Assembly: GCF_016862775.1 (NCBI RefSeq)
Contig: NZ_BONP01000003.1
Coordinates: forward strand, 124,001-188,000
DNA length: 64,000 nt
Origin: Cellulomonas phragmiteti
GTDB taxonomy: Bacteria > Actinomycetota > Actinomycetes > Actinomycetales > Cellulomonadaceae
Direction of reading: 5' to 3'
The translations under genes were made by a program, and so were the position numbers. This document shows positions 13,113 to 18,123 of the stretch, one piece after another. A model generated the notes under the pieces. That model searched no databases. It saw only the letters and a program-made list of their open reading frames with translations, and had not been told where the DNA came from. The stretch's first letter is position 1. Each line of letters begins with the position of its first letter.

Positions 13113-14969
13113 ATGTGCGGAATCGTCGGGTACGTGGGCAGCGCGGGGCCGAGCGGACGTCCGTTGGACGTGGTGCTCGAGGGGTTGCGCCGGTTGGAGT
13201 ACCGCGGGTACGACTCCGCGGGGGTCGCCCTGGTCGTGCCCGGCGGTGAGCTCGCGACGGCCAAGAAGGCCGGCAAGCTCGCCAACCTCGTCGGCGAGGT
13301 GGAGGCGCACCCGCTGCCGCCGGCGACCGCGGCCATCGGGCACACCCGCTGGGCGACGCACGGCGCACCGACCGACGCGAACGCCCACCCGCACGTCTCG
13401 GGCCGCGTCGCCGTGATCCACAACGGCATCGTGGAGAACTACGCCCCGCTGAAGGCCGAGCTCCTGGCCGACGGCGTGGAGTTCCTGTCCGAGACCGACA
13501 CCGAGGTCGTGGCGCACCTGGTGGCGCGCGCGTACGACCAGGTGAAGGACCTCACGGCCGCACTGGCGTCGGTCGCGCGTCGCCTCGAGGGCACGTTCAC
13601 CCTGCTCGCGGTGCACGCCGACGTGCCCGACACGGTCGTCGGCGCACGCCACGACTCGCCGCTCGTCGTCGGGCTGGGTGACGGCGAGAACTTCCTCGGC
13701 TCGGACGTCGCGGCGTTCATCGGCTCCACGCGCGAGGCCCTCGAGCTGGGCCAGGACCAGGTCGTGACGATCACGCCGACCTCGGTGACCGTCACGGACC
13801 TCGCCGGCGTGACTGTGCAGGCCAAGCCCTTCACGGTGGACTGGGACACGAAGGCCGCCGAGAAGGGCGGCTTCCGGTCCTTCATGGACAAGGAGATCAA
13901 CGACCAGCCGCAGGCCGTCGCCGACACCCTCCTGGGCCGGCTGGACCTGTCGGGCCGGCTGGTCCTCGACGAGATGCGCATCGAGGAGTCGGTGCTGCGG
14001 GCGGTCGACAAGATCGTCGTCGTCGCGTGCGGCACGGCCGCCTATGCGGGGCACGTCGCGAAGTACGCGATCGAGCACTGGTGCCGTATCCCGGTCGAGG
14101 TCGAGCTGGCGCACGAGTTCCGGTACCGCGACCCGGTCGTCGACGAGCGCACCCTCGTGGTCGCGGTGTCGCAGTCGGGCGAGACGATGGACACGCTCAT
14201 GGCCGTCCGCCACGCGCGTGAGCAGGGCGCGACGACCCTCGCGATCGTCAACACGCACGGCTCGACGATCCCGCGCGAGGCGGACGCGGTCCTGTACACC
14301 CACGCCGGTCCGGAGGTCGCGGTCGCGTCGACCAAGGCGTTCCTGTCGCAGATCACGGCGGCGTACCTGCTGGGCCTGTACCTGGCGCAGCTGCGCGGCA
14401 ACAAGTTCTCCGACGAGGTCGCCTCGACGCTGGCCGAGCTGCGCGAGATGCCGGACAAGATCCAGGAGGTCCTGGACCGCTCCGACCGGGTCCGGGAGAT
14501 CGCCCGGTGGATGGCCGACACGCCGTCCGTGCTCTTCCTGGGCCGGCACGTGGGCTTCCCGGTGGCCCTGGAGGGCGCGCTGAAGCTCAAGGAGCTCGCG
14601 TACATCCACGCCGAGGGGTTCGCCGCCGGGGAGCTCAAGCACGGCCCGATCGCGCTGATCGAGCCCGGTCAGCCCGTCTTCGTCATCGTGCCCTCGCCGC
14701 GGGGACGGCACTCGCTGCACTCCAAGGTCGTCTCCAACATCCAGGAGATCCGGGCGCGCGGCGCCCGGACCCTCGTGGTGGCCGAGGACGGCGACGACGC
14801 GGTCGTGCCGTACGCCGACGAGGTGTTCTTCGTCCCGCAGACGTCGACGCTGCTGGCGCCGCTGCTGACCGTGGTGCCGCTGCAGGTCTTCGCCTCCGAG
14901 CTGGCGCACGCCAAGGGCCTGGACGTGGACCAGCCGCGCAACCTGGCCAAGTCGGTCACCGTCGAGTGA
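13113..14969 (+). CDS. glmS: Glutamine--fructose-6-phosphate aminotransferase (isomerizing)
   Basis: Makes glucosamine-6-P from fructose-6-P and glutamine, the entry to amino-sugar synthesis. 618 residues. N-terminal Ntn-type glutaminase with nucleophile Cys2 in MCGIVGYVG, then [13 protein letters not shown] and [13 protein letters not shown]. Two SIS sugar-isomerase domains follow: [14 protein letters not shown] near residue 310, and SQSGETMDT. The C-terminus [13 protein letters not shown] is the highly conserved end. Followed 22 bases later by acpS, probably in one transcript. Confidence 0.97.
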
Positions 14970-14991
14970 CCGTGCCCGCGGTCGTCGCGCC

Positions 14992-15348
14992 GTGATCGTC
15001 GGCGTCGGGATCGACGTCGTCGACGTCGCCCGGTTCATGGCGACCGTGGAGCGCGTCCCCGCGCTGCGGGTCCGGCTGTTCACGCCGGACGAGCGCGACC
15101 TGCCCGACGCCTCGCTCGCGGCGCGGTTCGCCGCGAAGGAGGCGATCGCGAAGGCGCTGGGCGCACCGCCGGGCATGAGCTGGCAGGACGCGACGGTGCG
15201 GCGCGTCGCCGGGGCGCAACCCGTGGTCGAGGTGGTCGGCACCGTCCTGGCGCGCGCCCGTGAGCTGGGGGTCGACCGCTTCCACCTGTCGATCTCGCAC
15301 GACGCCGGCATCGCGTCCGCGGTCGTCGTCGCCGAGCGCGACGCCTGA
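14992..15348 (+). CDS. acpS: Holo-[acyl-carrier-protein] synthase
   Basis: Transfers 4'-phosphopantetheine from CoA to the acyl carrier protein. 118 residues, the usual length. The N-terminal metal-site motif is [12 protein letters not shown]. The second motif is [14 protein letters not shown], with the Glu and Lys of the active site. The C-terminal [14 protein letters not shown] is typical. GTG start at 14992, with no in-frame alternative close by. Likely co-transcribed with glmS. In many actinobacteria acpS lies next to nnr; here the repeat array and the LLM gene lie between them. Confidence 0.95.
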
Positions 15349-15386
15349 CACCTCCGGACCGCCTCCCGGCGGCCGAGGTTCGAGCC

Positions 15387-15579
15387 GGATCGCTCTCTCG
15401 CCGGATTGCTCTCTCACCGGGGTGGGTGGGGTGGGGATGGATTGCTCTCTCACCGGGGGGGTGGGCGCGCTCGTGCTGGATTGCTCTCTCACCGGGGGGG
15501 GGTGGGGCGGGATTGCTCTCTCACCGGGGGGTGGGGTGGGCGGGATTGCTCTCTCACTGCCGGTGAGAGAGCAATCCCG
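15387..15579 (+). repeat. G-rich array of an 18-base repeat ending in a 17-bp hairpin
   Basis: The 18-base unit GGATTGCTCTCTCACCGG occurs at 15403, 15439, 15478 and 15510. A degenerate copy lies at about 15387, and a fifth near-exact copy at 15543 forms the left arm of a hairpin. Start-to-start distances are 36, 39, 32 and 33 bases. The spacers are almost pure G runs broken by single T, A or C. One inverted copy (15563-15579) pairs with the last direct copy. The array fills the gap between convergent acpS and the LLM gene. No coding function is credible. Confidence 0.9.
15541..15579. terminator. Terminator hairpin made from the repeat unit
   Basis: Perfect 17-base stem 15541-15557 / 15563-15579 with the loop TGCCG. 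It ends five bases before the stop of the LLM gene on the minus strand and serves acpS on the plus strand. Confidence 0.75.
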
Positions 15580-15583
15580 CACG

Positions 15584-16570
15584 TCAGCGGAGGTGGGGGA
15601 CGACCTCGCGGGCGAAGAGCTCGATGCCCGAGCGGTCGTACGCGGCCTCGGCGAAGTACGTGATCGCGTACGTCATGCCGAGGTCCTGCAGCACGCGCAG
15701 CTTCTCGACGATCTGCTCCGGGGTGCCGACCAGGGGGCCGTGGCGGAAGTCCTCGGCGACCGACGCGGCCTTGTCGGGCACGGTGGTCGCGTAGTGCTCC
15801 TCGACCCAGGCGATGCGGTCGTCGACCTCGGCCTGCGTCGAGCCGATGACGACGTTGTAGTTGGCCGAGCGCGTGATCTCGTCGAACGGGCGGCCGATGG
15901 CCTCGCAGTGCCCGCGCAGCACCTGCGACTTGTGGGCGAAGCCCTCGGGGGAGCCGTCGAAGTTGGTGTACTGCGCGTGCTCGGCGGCGATCCGCAGCGT
16001 CTTCTTCTCGCCCCCGCCGGCGATCCACAGGGGCGGGCCGTCGACCTGCAGCGGCAGCGGCGACAGCTGGGCGCCGTCGACCTGGTAGTACGTGCCGTCG
16101 AGCGTCGCGGTGCCGTTGGTCCACATCTGCTTGAAGATCTGGACGCCCTCGTCGAGCATCGCGATGCGCTCGCCGGCGCGCGGGAACCCGTAGCCGTACG
16201 CGCGCCACTCGTGCTCGTACCAGCCGGCGCCGATGCCCATCTCGACGCGGCCGCCCGAGATGACGTCGGCGGTCGTGGCGACCTTCGCGAGGTAGGCGGG
16301 GTTGCGGTACGCCATGCACGTGCACATCTGGCCGAGGCGCACGCGGCTCGTGGACGCCGCGAACGCGTTGATGAGGCTCCACGCCTCGTGCGTCGCCTCG
16401 CCGTTCGGCTCGGGCACCGCGTGGAAGTGGTCGTACACCCAGATGGACTCGAAGACGTCGCCGTCGTCGGCCCACCGGGCCAGTCCGTGCATGACCTTCC
16501 AGTGGTCGCGGGCCTCGATGCCCGTGAGGTCCTGCCGCCAGCCCTGGGGGATGAAGAGTCCGAATCGCAT
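15584..16570 (-). CDS. LLM class F420-dependent oxidoreductase
   Basis: A 328-residue TIM-barrel protein of the luciferase-like monooxygenase superfamily. It begins MRFGLFIPQGW, with WVYDHFHAVP, RVRLGQMCTCMAYRNPAYLA and GRVEMGIGAGWYEHEWRAYG, the usual cofactor-binding blocks of the F420/FMN-dependent branch. It likely uses F420H2 to oxidise or reduce an unknown small molecule. The ATG at 16570 is seven bases after a minus-strand TAGCGT -10. A GTG three codons upstream would overlap that hexamer. Divergent from nnr and convergent with the repeat array. Confidence 0.9.
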   Translation of the reverse strand: MRFGLFIPQGWRQDLTGIEARDHWKVMHGLARWADDGDVFESIWVYDHFHAVPEPNGEATHEAWSLINAFAASTSRVRLGQMCTCMAYRNPAYLAKVATTADVISGGRVEMGIGAGWYEHEWRAYGYGFPRAGERIAMLDEGVQIFKQMWTNGTATLDGTYYQVDGAQLSPLPLQVDGPPLWIAGGGEKKTLRIAAEHAQYTNFDGSPEGFAHKSQVLRGHCEAIGRPFDEITRSANYNVVIGSTQAEVDDRIAWVEEHYATTVPDKAASVAEDFRHGPLVGTPEQIVEKLRVLQDLGMTYAITYFAEAAYDRSGIELFAREVVPHLR

Positions 16571-16577
16571 GCCTGCC

Positions 16578-16583
16578 ACGCTA
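16578..16583 (-). promoter_or_regulatory. -10 hexamer TAGCGT, leaderless promoter of LLM gene
   Basis: Read on the minus strand, TAGCGT is followed by seven bases and then ATG at 16570. No Shine-Dalgarno sequence. Confidence 0.55.
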
Positions 16584-16613
16584 CCGGCGCTCGCCCCGGC
16601 GCGACCGTCGGGA

Positions 16614-16619
16614 CAGGAT
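16614..16619 (+). promoter_or_regulatory. Possible -10 CAGGAT before nnr
   Basis: CAGGAT ends seven bases before GTG 16627. The first base deviates from TANNNT. It lies back to back with the LLM promoter, 30 bases away. Confidence 0.4.
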
Positions 16620-16626
16620 GGGGCGC

Positions 16627-18123
16627 GTGCTGCACTCGTGGGACGCCGGCGCCGTGCGCGCGGCCGAGGAACCGCTGCTCGCTGCCGGGGAGCCGCTCAT
16701 GGCCCGCGCGTCGTTCGCGCTCGCGACGCGCGTCGCGAGCCTCCTGCGGGAGACCCGGGGACGGGCCGGCGGGTCGCGGGTGGTGCTCCTGGTCGGCTCC
16801 GGCCACAACGGCGGCGACGCGCTGCACGCCGGCGCGCTGCTGGCCCGCCGGGGGGTGGCCGTCAGCGCCGTCCTCACCACCGAGCGCGTCCACGCCGAGG
16901 GGCTCGCGGCGCTGCGCGCGGCGCACGGCCACGTCCTCGCGGTCGACCACGACGACCAGGCCGTTCCCGACGCGGTCGCCGCGGCGCTCGCTACGGCGGA
17001 CGTGGTGCTCGACGGGCTGCTCGGCCTCGGGGGGCGCGGCGGTGTGCGCGGCCCGGCCGCCCGGCTCGTCGCGCACGTCGCGCAGGCCCGGCCCCGGCCC
17101 GTCGTGGTGGCGGTCGACCTGCCGTCCGGCGTCGGCGTGGACGACGGGACGCGCAACGGCGTGGTCCTCGACGCCGACCTCACCGTGACGTTCGGTGCGT
17201 ACAAGCCCGCGCTGCTGCTGCCGCCCGCGGCGGCGGCGGCCGGTCGCGTCGAGCTCGTCGACATCGGCCTGGCGCCCGCCGGCCCGCCCGCCGTCGCGCG
17301 GCTCGAGGCGCACGACGTGGCCGCGCTGTGGCCCGTGCCGGCCCCGGACGCGCACAAGTACGTGCGGGGGGTGCTGGGCGTCGTCACCGGGTCGGCGCGG
17401 TACCCGGGCGCCGCCGTGCTGACCGTGGCCGGGGCGGTGCGTGCCGGCGTCGGCATGGTGCGCTACATCGGGTCCGCCGGTCCGCAGGTGCTCGCCGCGC
17501 ACCCGGAGGTCGTCGTGGGCGACGGGCGCGTGCAGGCGTGGGTCGTGGGCTCCGGGGTGGCGCCCGACGACGACGAGCAGCGCCGACGGGTGCGCGACGC
17601 CCTCGTGCACGCCGTCGGCCACGACGAGCCCGTCGTCGTCGACGCCGGTGCCCTGGACCTGCTGCCGGACGCGGTCCCGGCGCACGTCGTGCTCACCCCG
17701 CACGCGGGCGAGCTGGCGGCGCTGCTGACGGCGCGCGGCGAGCACGTCGCCCGCGCGGACGTCGAGGCAGCGCCGCTGGCGCACGCGCGGCGCGCGCACG
17801 ACCTGACCGGCGCGACCGTCCTGCTCAAGGGCGGCACGACGGTGGTGGCCGGGCCGCACGGCGCCACGTACGCCCAGGCCGACGGCCCGTCGTGGCTCGC
17901 CACCGCGGGCGCGGGCGACGTGCTGGCCGGCGTCGTCGGCGCGCTGCTCGCCGGGCGGGCGGCGGACGCCGTGGCCGATCCGACGCTGCCGGCCGCACTG
18001 GCCGCCGCCGCGGCCCTGGTGCACGGGCGCGCCGCCGGGCACGCGAACCCGGGAGGGCCCGTGACGGCGGGCGACGTCGCGGACGCGCTGCCCGCCGTCG
18101 TCGCCGGGGTGCTGCGCGCGTGA
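16627..18123 (+). CDS. nnr: Bifunctional NAD(P)H-hydrate epimerase / ADP-dependent dehydratase
   Basis: Repairs damaged NAD(P)H hydrates. The N-terminal YjeF_N epimerase domain (about residues 1-210) has LVGSGHNGGDALHAG and VDLPSGVGVDDG. The C-terminal ribokinase-like dehydratase domain has KYVRGVLGVVTGS, VVDAGALDLL, LTPHAGELAALL, LLKGGTTVVAG and the catalytic TAGAGDVLAGVVGALLAG. About 498 residues, normal for the fused form. GTG 16627 gives VLHSWDAGAVRAAE, matching where the family usually starts; an ATG nine bases upstream is in frame but overlaps the possible -10. The stop overlaps the next start (GTGA at 18120). Confidence 0.93.
   Translation: MLHSWDAGAVRAAEEPLLAAGEPLMARASFALATRVASLLRETRGRAGGSRVVLLVGSGHNGGDALHAGALLARRGVAVSAVLTTERVHAEGLAALRAAHGHVLAVDHDDQAVPDAVAAALATADVVLDGLLGLGGRGGVRGPAARLVAHVAQARPRPVVVAVDLPSGVGVDDGTRNGVVLDADLTVTFGAYKPALLLPPAAAAAGRVELVDIGLAPAGPPAVARLEAHDVAALWPVPAPDAHKYVRGVLGVVTGSARYPGAAVLTVAGAVRAGVGMVRYIGSAGPQVLAAHPEVVVGDGRVQAWVVGSGVAPDDDEQRRRVRDALVHAVGHDEPVVVDAGALDLLPDAVPAHVVLTPHAGELAALLTARGEHVARADVEAAPLAHARRAHDLTGATVLLKGGTTVVAGPHGATYAQADGPSWLATAGAGDVLAGVVGALLAGRAADAVADPTLPAALAAAAALVHGRAAGHANPGGPVTAGDVADALPAVVAGVLRA

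Follow-up and report, generated by a model that had tools for sequence, protein, structure and literature searches.

A REP/BIME-like stem-loop family behind genes of related Cellulomonas species and its putative role at transcript 3' ends

Related repeat families and the Cellulomonas unit

Much is known about REP-like repeats that occur together with a RAYT enzyme. The REP unit is a palindrome of 20-40 bp, and the GTAG REPs are tagged by GTAG or GT[AG]G at the foot of the hairpin and mobilised by RAYT. In the actinobacterium Mycobacterium tuberculosis, the TRIT element of the RNIE paper is reportedly a repeated hairpin that serves as a terminator. The family described here is likewise a repeated hairpin in an actinobacterium. 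A TRIT model is mentioned in the available part of PMC3526491. In Streptomyces intrinsic terminators, 3-4 of the first 10 nt are U, according to the sections of PMC12207403 that were accessible. For the CGTC-tagged REPs, the accessible sections of the REP survey name no dedicated transposase and list the repeats in five phyla, Actinobacteria not among them (PMC3733652); the word Actinobacteria is absent from the main text of that survey.

We analysed an array of short repeats between two convergent genes of Cellulomonas phragmiteti. It is best read, at a probability of about 0.58, as a site of a clade-specific REP/BIME-like stem-loop family whose hairpin is kept for a putative 3'-end role. The unit is dispersed, restricted to one clade, placed behind genes and found at sites shared between species; its close inverted pairs covary, a U-tract is missing beside the hairpins and no RAYT gene is detectable in the carriers. 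The likeness to REPs, BIMEs and REPINs lies in short extragenic repeats that occur in many copies (31-274 in 10 genomes, with 3 of 94 clusters in called genes), as singles, inverted pairs and mosaics, mostly behind genes. As in BIMEs, clusters hold repeats in both orientations (77 of 117). Unlike the GTAG REPs, the unit has no tag at its foot: in an alignment of 299 units, positions -8 to -5 are G-rich and show no GTAG-like tetranucleotide. Nor was a RAYT gene detected in its carriers. The REP unit is a palindrome; the 18-nt Cellulomonas core hardly folds alone, and core plus tail folds a little better than shuffled sequence. The family and the CGTC REPs are alike in having no dedicated transposase known, as far as the accessible part of PMC3733652 goes, but the CGTC tag is missing from the Cellulomonas units over positions -30 to +63. 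Since neither tag is present and no RAYT gene was found, the family is REP/BIME-like in working but stands outside the GTAG and CGTC families as these are defined in the available sections of PMC3733652. No description of a CTGGATYGCNCTCTCRC repeat was found in the literature searched, most subscription papers lying outside our reach, and six sequence words returned an unrelated match only.

The unit is about 18-22 nt long, (R)CTGGATYGCNCTCTCRC, usually with a G-rich tail of about 10 nt. Alignment of 299 units gave RCTGGATYGCNCTCTCRC, followed in part of them by GCCC and then by about nine positions at 57-80% G; position -4 is R and positions -3 to -1 are CTG. The 18-nt core alone folds at a mean of -0.99 kcal/mol and core plus tail (38 nt) at -13.2 kcal/mol, compared with -11.2 kcal/mol for mononucleotide shuffles. 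Two inverted units are needed for a long hairpin of about 15-18 bp.

With a weight matrix we collected 437 units in 117 clusters (reversed control 0); these counts refer to the copies listed, up to 100 per genome. In the window's genome (G000), seven clusters or copies that adjoin contig ends lie outside the cluster analyses, as do 1 of 23 listed G079 clusters and five listed G068 clusters. Neighbouring units stand head-to-tail 207 times, 101 of these at 30-33 bp with a mode of 31 bp, while inverted neighbours face each other with their CTGG ends 62 times and with their CTCTC ends 51 times. By their end units, the 77 clusters with both orientations divide into 40 -+, 29 +-, 4 -- and 4 ++. A single orientation was found in 22 clusters of two or more units, and 18 clusters are single units; no inverted pair within 120 bp is present in 41 clusters, 18 of them the single units.

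The array between acpS and the LLM gene

The array (15385-15580) lies in the window, that is, the whole stretch of 64,000 nucleotides that was analysed, in whose numbering coordinates are given. It consists of six direct units and one inverted unit, the inverted one next to the gene for a luciferase-like monooxygenase (LLM), and is bounded by the acpS stop (15348) and the stop of the convergent LLM gene (15584). The original prediction had placed a hairpin between convergent genes, and both neighbours are called genes with Pfam support: acpS (14992-15348, + strand), encoding a 4'-phosphopantetheinyl transferase (PF01648), and the LLM gene (15584-16570, - strand; PF00296), whose start codon is uncertain, an alternative start extending it to 16579. 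The weight matrix gave 7 sites in the 64-kb window versus 0 in the reversed window at thresholds of 10 to 16, and 7 versus 1 at a threshold of 8; the seven sites are exactly the seven units of the array.

Reading along the + strand, a diverged unit CCGGATCGCTCTCTCGC (15385-15401, score 25.6) is followed by unit 1, CCGGATTGCTCTCTCAC (15401-15417, score 30.5, exact 18-mer at 15403-15420), and a G-rich spacer (15418-15436) with a G-quadruplex motif at 15419-15436. Unit 2 (15437-15453, score 28.8, exact 18-mer at 15439-15456) and a partly G-rich spacer (15454-15475) lead to unit 3, CTGGATTGCTCTCTCAC, which is nearest to the family consensus (15476-15492, score 34.9, exact 18-mer at 15478-15495). 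A G-rich spacer (15493-15507, motif from 15494), unit 4 (15508-15524), a further G-rich spacer (15525-15540, motif from 15526) and unit 5 (15541-15557) complete the direct series. Unit 5 and the inverted unit (15563-15579, - strand), both located by weight matrix and pairing, are the left and right arms of a hairpin (15540-15580) that was also found by covariance model R1. Its stem is a perfect 18 bp (15540-15557 with 15563-15580) with a loop of 5 nt, instead of the 17 bp originally given. The inverted arm does pair with the last direct copy, as had been proposed, yet it pairs for longer with the fourth: the surroundings of unit 4 (15507-15527; likewise placed by weight matrix and pairing) match 15560-15580 over 21 bp.

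The repeat pattern first reported was confirmed, with some corrections. Exact copies of GGATTGCTCTCTCACCGG begin at four positions, 15403, 15439, 15478 and 15510, and its reverse complement lies at 15560-15577. Two further direct copies agree with it at 16 of 18 positions each, namely the near-exact fifth one (15543-15560) and the degenerate one (15387-15404). The proposed spacing of 32-39 bases holds for the five direct copies (36, 39, 32 and 33 from start to start) but not for the degenerate copy, which lies 16 bases before the first. To call the spacers almost pure G runs was an overstatement, as GCGCGCTCGTGCT occurs within one of them and G accounts for 84 of the 194 bases of 15387-15580. 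The expected G-quadruplex pattern is present, with three motif matches on the + strand and none on the - strand. Alternative hairpins had also been suggested, and the minimum-energy folds of both strands indeed join the inverted arm to a copy other than its neighbour. The array folds better than dinucleotide shuffles on both strands (z -4.18 and -5.08). An Rfam scan of 14900-16700 gave only two sub-threshold microRNA matches, which we took as chance.

Copy number, clade and position behind genes

The original prediction proposed a search for the unit in the whole genome and in related Cellulomonadaceae, and it was found in both. The window's genome holds 28 exact copies of GATTGCTCTCTCAC (0 for the reversed control), 136 when two mismatches are allowed (reversed control 1) and 123 copies of the degenerate core GATYGCNCTCTCRC. 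This core is present at 31-274 copies in 10 of the 81 genus genomes, the window's genome included (G000 123, G003 136, G010 59, G018 31, G026 57, G044 51, G059 274, G068 190, G078 146, G079 196), and at 0-4 copies in the other 211 of the 221 family genomes searched; the reversed pattern gave 0 in all ten carriers. A covariance model built from 32 hairpins matched 12 of the 81 genus genomes at E<=0.001 and none of the remaining 69, with 7-59 matches per positive genome (both strands counted). The acpS-gap hairpins of the window and of G068 stood outside its training set, and the model found the former on either strand at 15541-15579, scoring 47.7 and 46.9 bits, and the latter at 47.7 bits.

The repeat family occurs in about a dozen related Cellulomonas species. 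In a tree of the LLM gene, the 12 hairpin genomes fall in a 14-row group (90/95 support, drawn open) that also includes G029 and G048, both without the hairpin. This tree comprises 30 rows: the start motif missed G047, so that one of the 30 loci was lost, and G018 was added. Cellulomonas iranensis and Cellulomonas sp. N5CT are named relatives with several unit matches, among the matches listed. A wider species scan yielded, among 80 loci listed (112 stretches), 73 non-Cellulomonas loci with one match each and six loci with 2-4 matches, all of them Cellulomonas. A phage origin of the unit was considered and rejected: 42 viral-contig stretches had one match each, which we took as chance given the 2.9 million contigs.

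In the window's genome, a unit lies within about 100 bases of the start (C7, C15, C24, C30, C35, C42) or end (C2, C16, C18, C23) of ten contigs. The arrays thus break this assembly, so that copy numbers are probably undercounted, and the tendency of carrier assemblies to break at arrays is a warning for users of these genomes.

A word so strongly fixed, with near strand-symmetric placement, might serve as a recognition word for a DNA-level process, such as an uptake sequence or a nucleoid or gyrase site. An apparent scarcity of copies near the terminus of two complete chromosomes would fit: among the copies listed, 33 of 196 lie between 1.05 and 3.06 Mb in G079 and 38 of 190 between 1.13 and 3.11 Mb in G068, the first gene of both chromosome records presumably being dnaA. 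However, the copies are few (tens to hundreds), clustered in arrays and nearly absent from genes (3 of 94 clusters), and we consider such a function improbable. We know of no protein that binds the unit word.

The location of 94 clusters was determined in 81 stretches of five genomes, which were picked for holding copies and represent part of all copies. Genes were called by a simple codon-usage caller, and called genes shorter than 900 nt with two or more units were dropped as spurious. We found 54 clusters in tandem gaps, 28 in convergent and 5 in divergent gaps, with 3 in called genes and 4 unassigned; for comparison, the same stretches contain 166 tandem, 36 convergent and 91 divergent element-free gaps of 60 bp or more. 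Divergent gaps are thereby poor in clusters (Fisher p 2.4e-7). Within tandem gaps, 45 of the 54 clusters are nearer the upstream stop (median 28.5 nt, versus 91 nt to the next start). The orientation of units relative to transcription is near random, which does not favour a general mechanism based on strand-specific G-rich or C-rich RNA. A strand-specific RNA mechanism as a general rule was rejected on these orientations, which divide 106 to 80 in tandem gaps and 51 to 48 in convergent ones.

The family is terminator-like in placing a stable hairpin just behind a gene, although the inverted pair is missing in some clusters. Streptomyces terminators are likewise long, stable, covarying hairpins behind genes of GC-rich actinobacteria, but the accessible part of PMC12207403 does not describe them as one repeated sequence family, and their 3-4 U of 10 contrast with a mean of 1.34 T in Cellulomonas. 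This value comes from 22 tight hairpins with 44 flanks, in which no U-tract was found (1.34 T per 10 nt, longest run 2) and whose T content resembles the background of 0.127. Without a U-tract, the hairpin is not a canonical intrinsic terminator. The G-quadruplex motif (four runs of at least three G with 1-7 nt between) was present in 52 of 117 clusters, versus 30 of 209 element-free gaps, and is not a constant feature of the family.

These results bear on the idea from which the work started, a terminator grown locally from its own left arm and flank, with G-quadruplex spacers and control of read-through. At the acpS/LLM gap the direct copies, the similar spacers, the hairpin at one end, the convergent genes and the + strand G-quadruplex motifs all agree with it. 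But the unit, with more than 100 copies in the window's genome, recurs at many other loci and at array-level copy number in nine further genomes, and this dispersal contradicts a local origin. The tight hairpins of the family have no U-tract and fewer than half of the clusters contain the G-quadruplex motif, so we regard local growth of a terminator as very unlikely. Of the proposed growth by duplication, the local expansion of units did stand: units of one cluster are more alike (identity 0.847) than units from different clusters of the same genome (0.782).

Pairing, shared sites and spread

The hairpin search matched 21 of the 81 genomes; 62 hairpins from 12 family genomes were used and ten hairpins from nine other genomes were omitted as their interior looked unrelated. 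Two of the 62, one of them the sole G010 hairpin, were too short for the stem-position test, which was run on the other 60 (11 genomes). The arms agreed at stem positions 7, 9 and 10 in 150 of 180 cases, compared with 110.5 when arms were shuffled within genomes (0 of 2000 shuffles as high), while positions 12-15, which vary little, matched no better than shuffled arms in the same 60 hairpins. A set of 32 hairpins had 97.3% of its cells paired, a figure that is biased upward because the rows were picked by eye from the 62 and are mostly well paired. It contained 29 double-changed cells versus 10.5 after shuffling (0 of 500 as high), and the number of its pairs changed on both sides was not above the shuffles (3 versus 2.2, 169 of 500). 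A hairpin that is orthologous in five genomes has 17 pairs, with 98.8% of its cells paired and both sides changed at three pairs; it gave 5 double-changed cells versus 2.2 (2 of 500 as high); here too, the count of both-side-changed pairs did not exceed the shuffles (3 versus 1.8, 60 of 500).

Close pairs with facing CTGG ends had the variable base N in common in 9 of 9 cases, but those with facing CTCTC ends in only 8 of 13. Within clusters, the same N was found for 0.45 of unit pairs in opposite orientation versus 0.72 in the same orientation, and all three variable positions were alike for 0.24 versus 0.52. Since opposite-orientation units are less alike and only some of the CTCTC-facing pairs share N, pairing is not strictly kept in arrays; it seems to be kept in close inverted pairs and not across whole arrays. 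Arm-to-arm correction of the palindrome, instead of selection, could be the source of the covariation.

Both flanks are orthologous to those of a cluster in another analysed genome for 62 of the 117 clusters (70 pairs), and the contents of such shared sites change. The acpS gap is occupied in 7 of the 10 array carriers, in differing arrangements: arrays of 140-228 bp with other arrangements in G003, G010, G078 and G079, an array of at least 350 bp in G059 and one hairpin with an altered stem in G068, besides the window's own array. No unit was found in this gap in G026 and G044 (23 bp) or in G018 (105 bp), showing that the unit is dispensable at that site; the gap is only 3-4 bp in G014, G042, G024 and G025. 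Compared with the array-free G077 and G014, the carrier gap is longer in 9 of 12 comparisons (median 286 versus 113.5 bp), some gaps being counted more than once. In G077, two gaps that correspond by orthology to carrier clusters are occupied by single hairpins whose stem base is the same.

With regard to spread, units resemble others in their own genome slightly more than those in another genome (an excess identity of 0.022, reached by none of 500 label shuffles). For orthologous clusters the excess over matched non-orthologous clusters was 0.013, with a positive difference in only 40 of 70 pairs. The sequence of a unit therefore depends on its genome no less than on its site, and this suggests that units are copied between sites. 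No RAYT gene (Y1_Tnp, PF01797) was detected in the 10 array carriers; among the 81 genus genomes the only one was in the non-carrier G052. The control for this search was positive in 5 of 14 known genomes, and a very divergent HUH enzyme would escape it. Genes within 800 nt of units, searched for a partner, included only one weak within-genome paralogue pair (34% identical), and no recurrent gene family was found beside the analysed arrays.

A classical REP/REPIN mobilised by a RAYT transposase would account for many extragenic copies and for BIME-like inverted pairs and mosaics. The distribution of Y1_Tnp, whose control was positive in 5 of 14 known genomes, speaks against this, as do the missing GTAG-like tetranucleotide before the unit and a core that barely folds, although core plus tail does so somewhat better than shuffles. 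We give RAYT mobilisation very little credence.

A stronger competitor is a purely selfish or neutral repeat that spreads and expands by copying and replication slippage and survives behind genes only because it is least harmful there, with hairpin pairing the outcome of arm-to-arm correction or of an inverted duplication in the recent past. Orthologous gaps vary in copy number, order and orientation, identity is higher within clusters and within genomes, 3 of 10 carriers lack the unit in the acpS gap, orientation is near random with respect to transcription, and similarity is lower between opposite-orientation than between same-orientation units; all of this would follow from such behaviour. 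It sits less well with the double-sided changes at the orthologous hairpin in five genomes, with the orthologous occupied sites of 62 of 117 clusters, and with the single hairpins that array-free G077 keeps at gaps orthologous to carrier clusters. On balance we judge a selfish or neutral origin of the whole pattern possible but less likely than a 3'-end role.

The most likely of these readings is a strand-symmetric 3'-end hairpin, with the selfish or neutral repeat as a strong rival. On the 3'-end reading, units would be copied into new 3' gaps, would then multiply in place by tandem duplication, with a commonest step of 31 bp, and would be partly homogenised within each genome. The hairpin would be kept as a putative strand-symmetric 3'-end structure behind both convergent genes, where it may protect mRNA 3' ends, or else pause or terminate transcription in a U-tract-free manner, perhaps together with Rho. 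The LLM-strand RNA of the array is C-rich (49% C and 22% G over 137 nt), which would suit Rho.

Dispersal, arrays and some within-genome homogenisation without a detectable RAYT gene make the family a clean setting for testing how such repeats spread. Its natural variation, from none to seven or more units in one gap, offers a test of what arrays do to convergent transcription. It also belongs to a phylum that the available sections of REP survey PMC3733652 do not name.

More tentatively, and with slightly less confidence than we attach to the selfish alternative, actinobacteria might harbour clade-specific 3'-end hairpin families that spread and become homogenised within genomes without RAYT, the 3' gaps of genes being homes that are colonised successively and used as terminators. 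A view of gaps as repeat homes is prompted by unrelated families behind the same gene in sister lineages: of the 10 carriers, 7 have the present family after the LLM gene, and G057 and G062 have a second one, GAGAGTCCAGGACACG, there. The latter is a dispersed hairpin word with 15, 23 and 26 copies in G056, G057 and G062 and 0 in the other 78 genomes. In both G057 and G062, one GAGAGTCCAGGACACG hairpin comes immediately after the LLM gene; there a further gene is called ahead of acpS, so that this gap is not the acpS gap.

Two further hairpins were seen in genomes without arrays. The acpS/LLM gap of G072 and G077 contains an unrelated hairpin, gggtcgcccc with ggggcgaccc. On contig C1 of G077 (about 106757-106940), a single CTGGATCG hairpin followed by CCCTTT occupies a gap in which carriers have units, with about four tandem copies of gcgcggcgcgcgggatgggtca, a word of about 22 bp, behind it.
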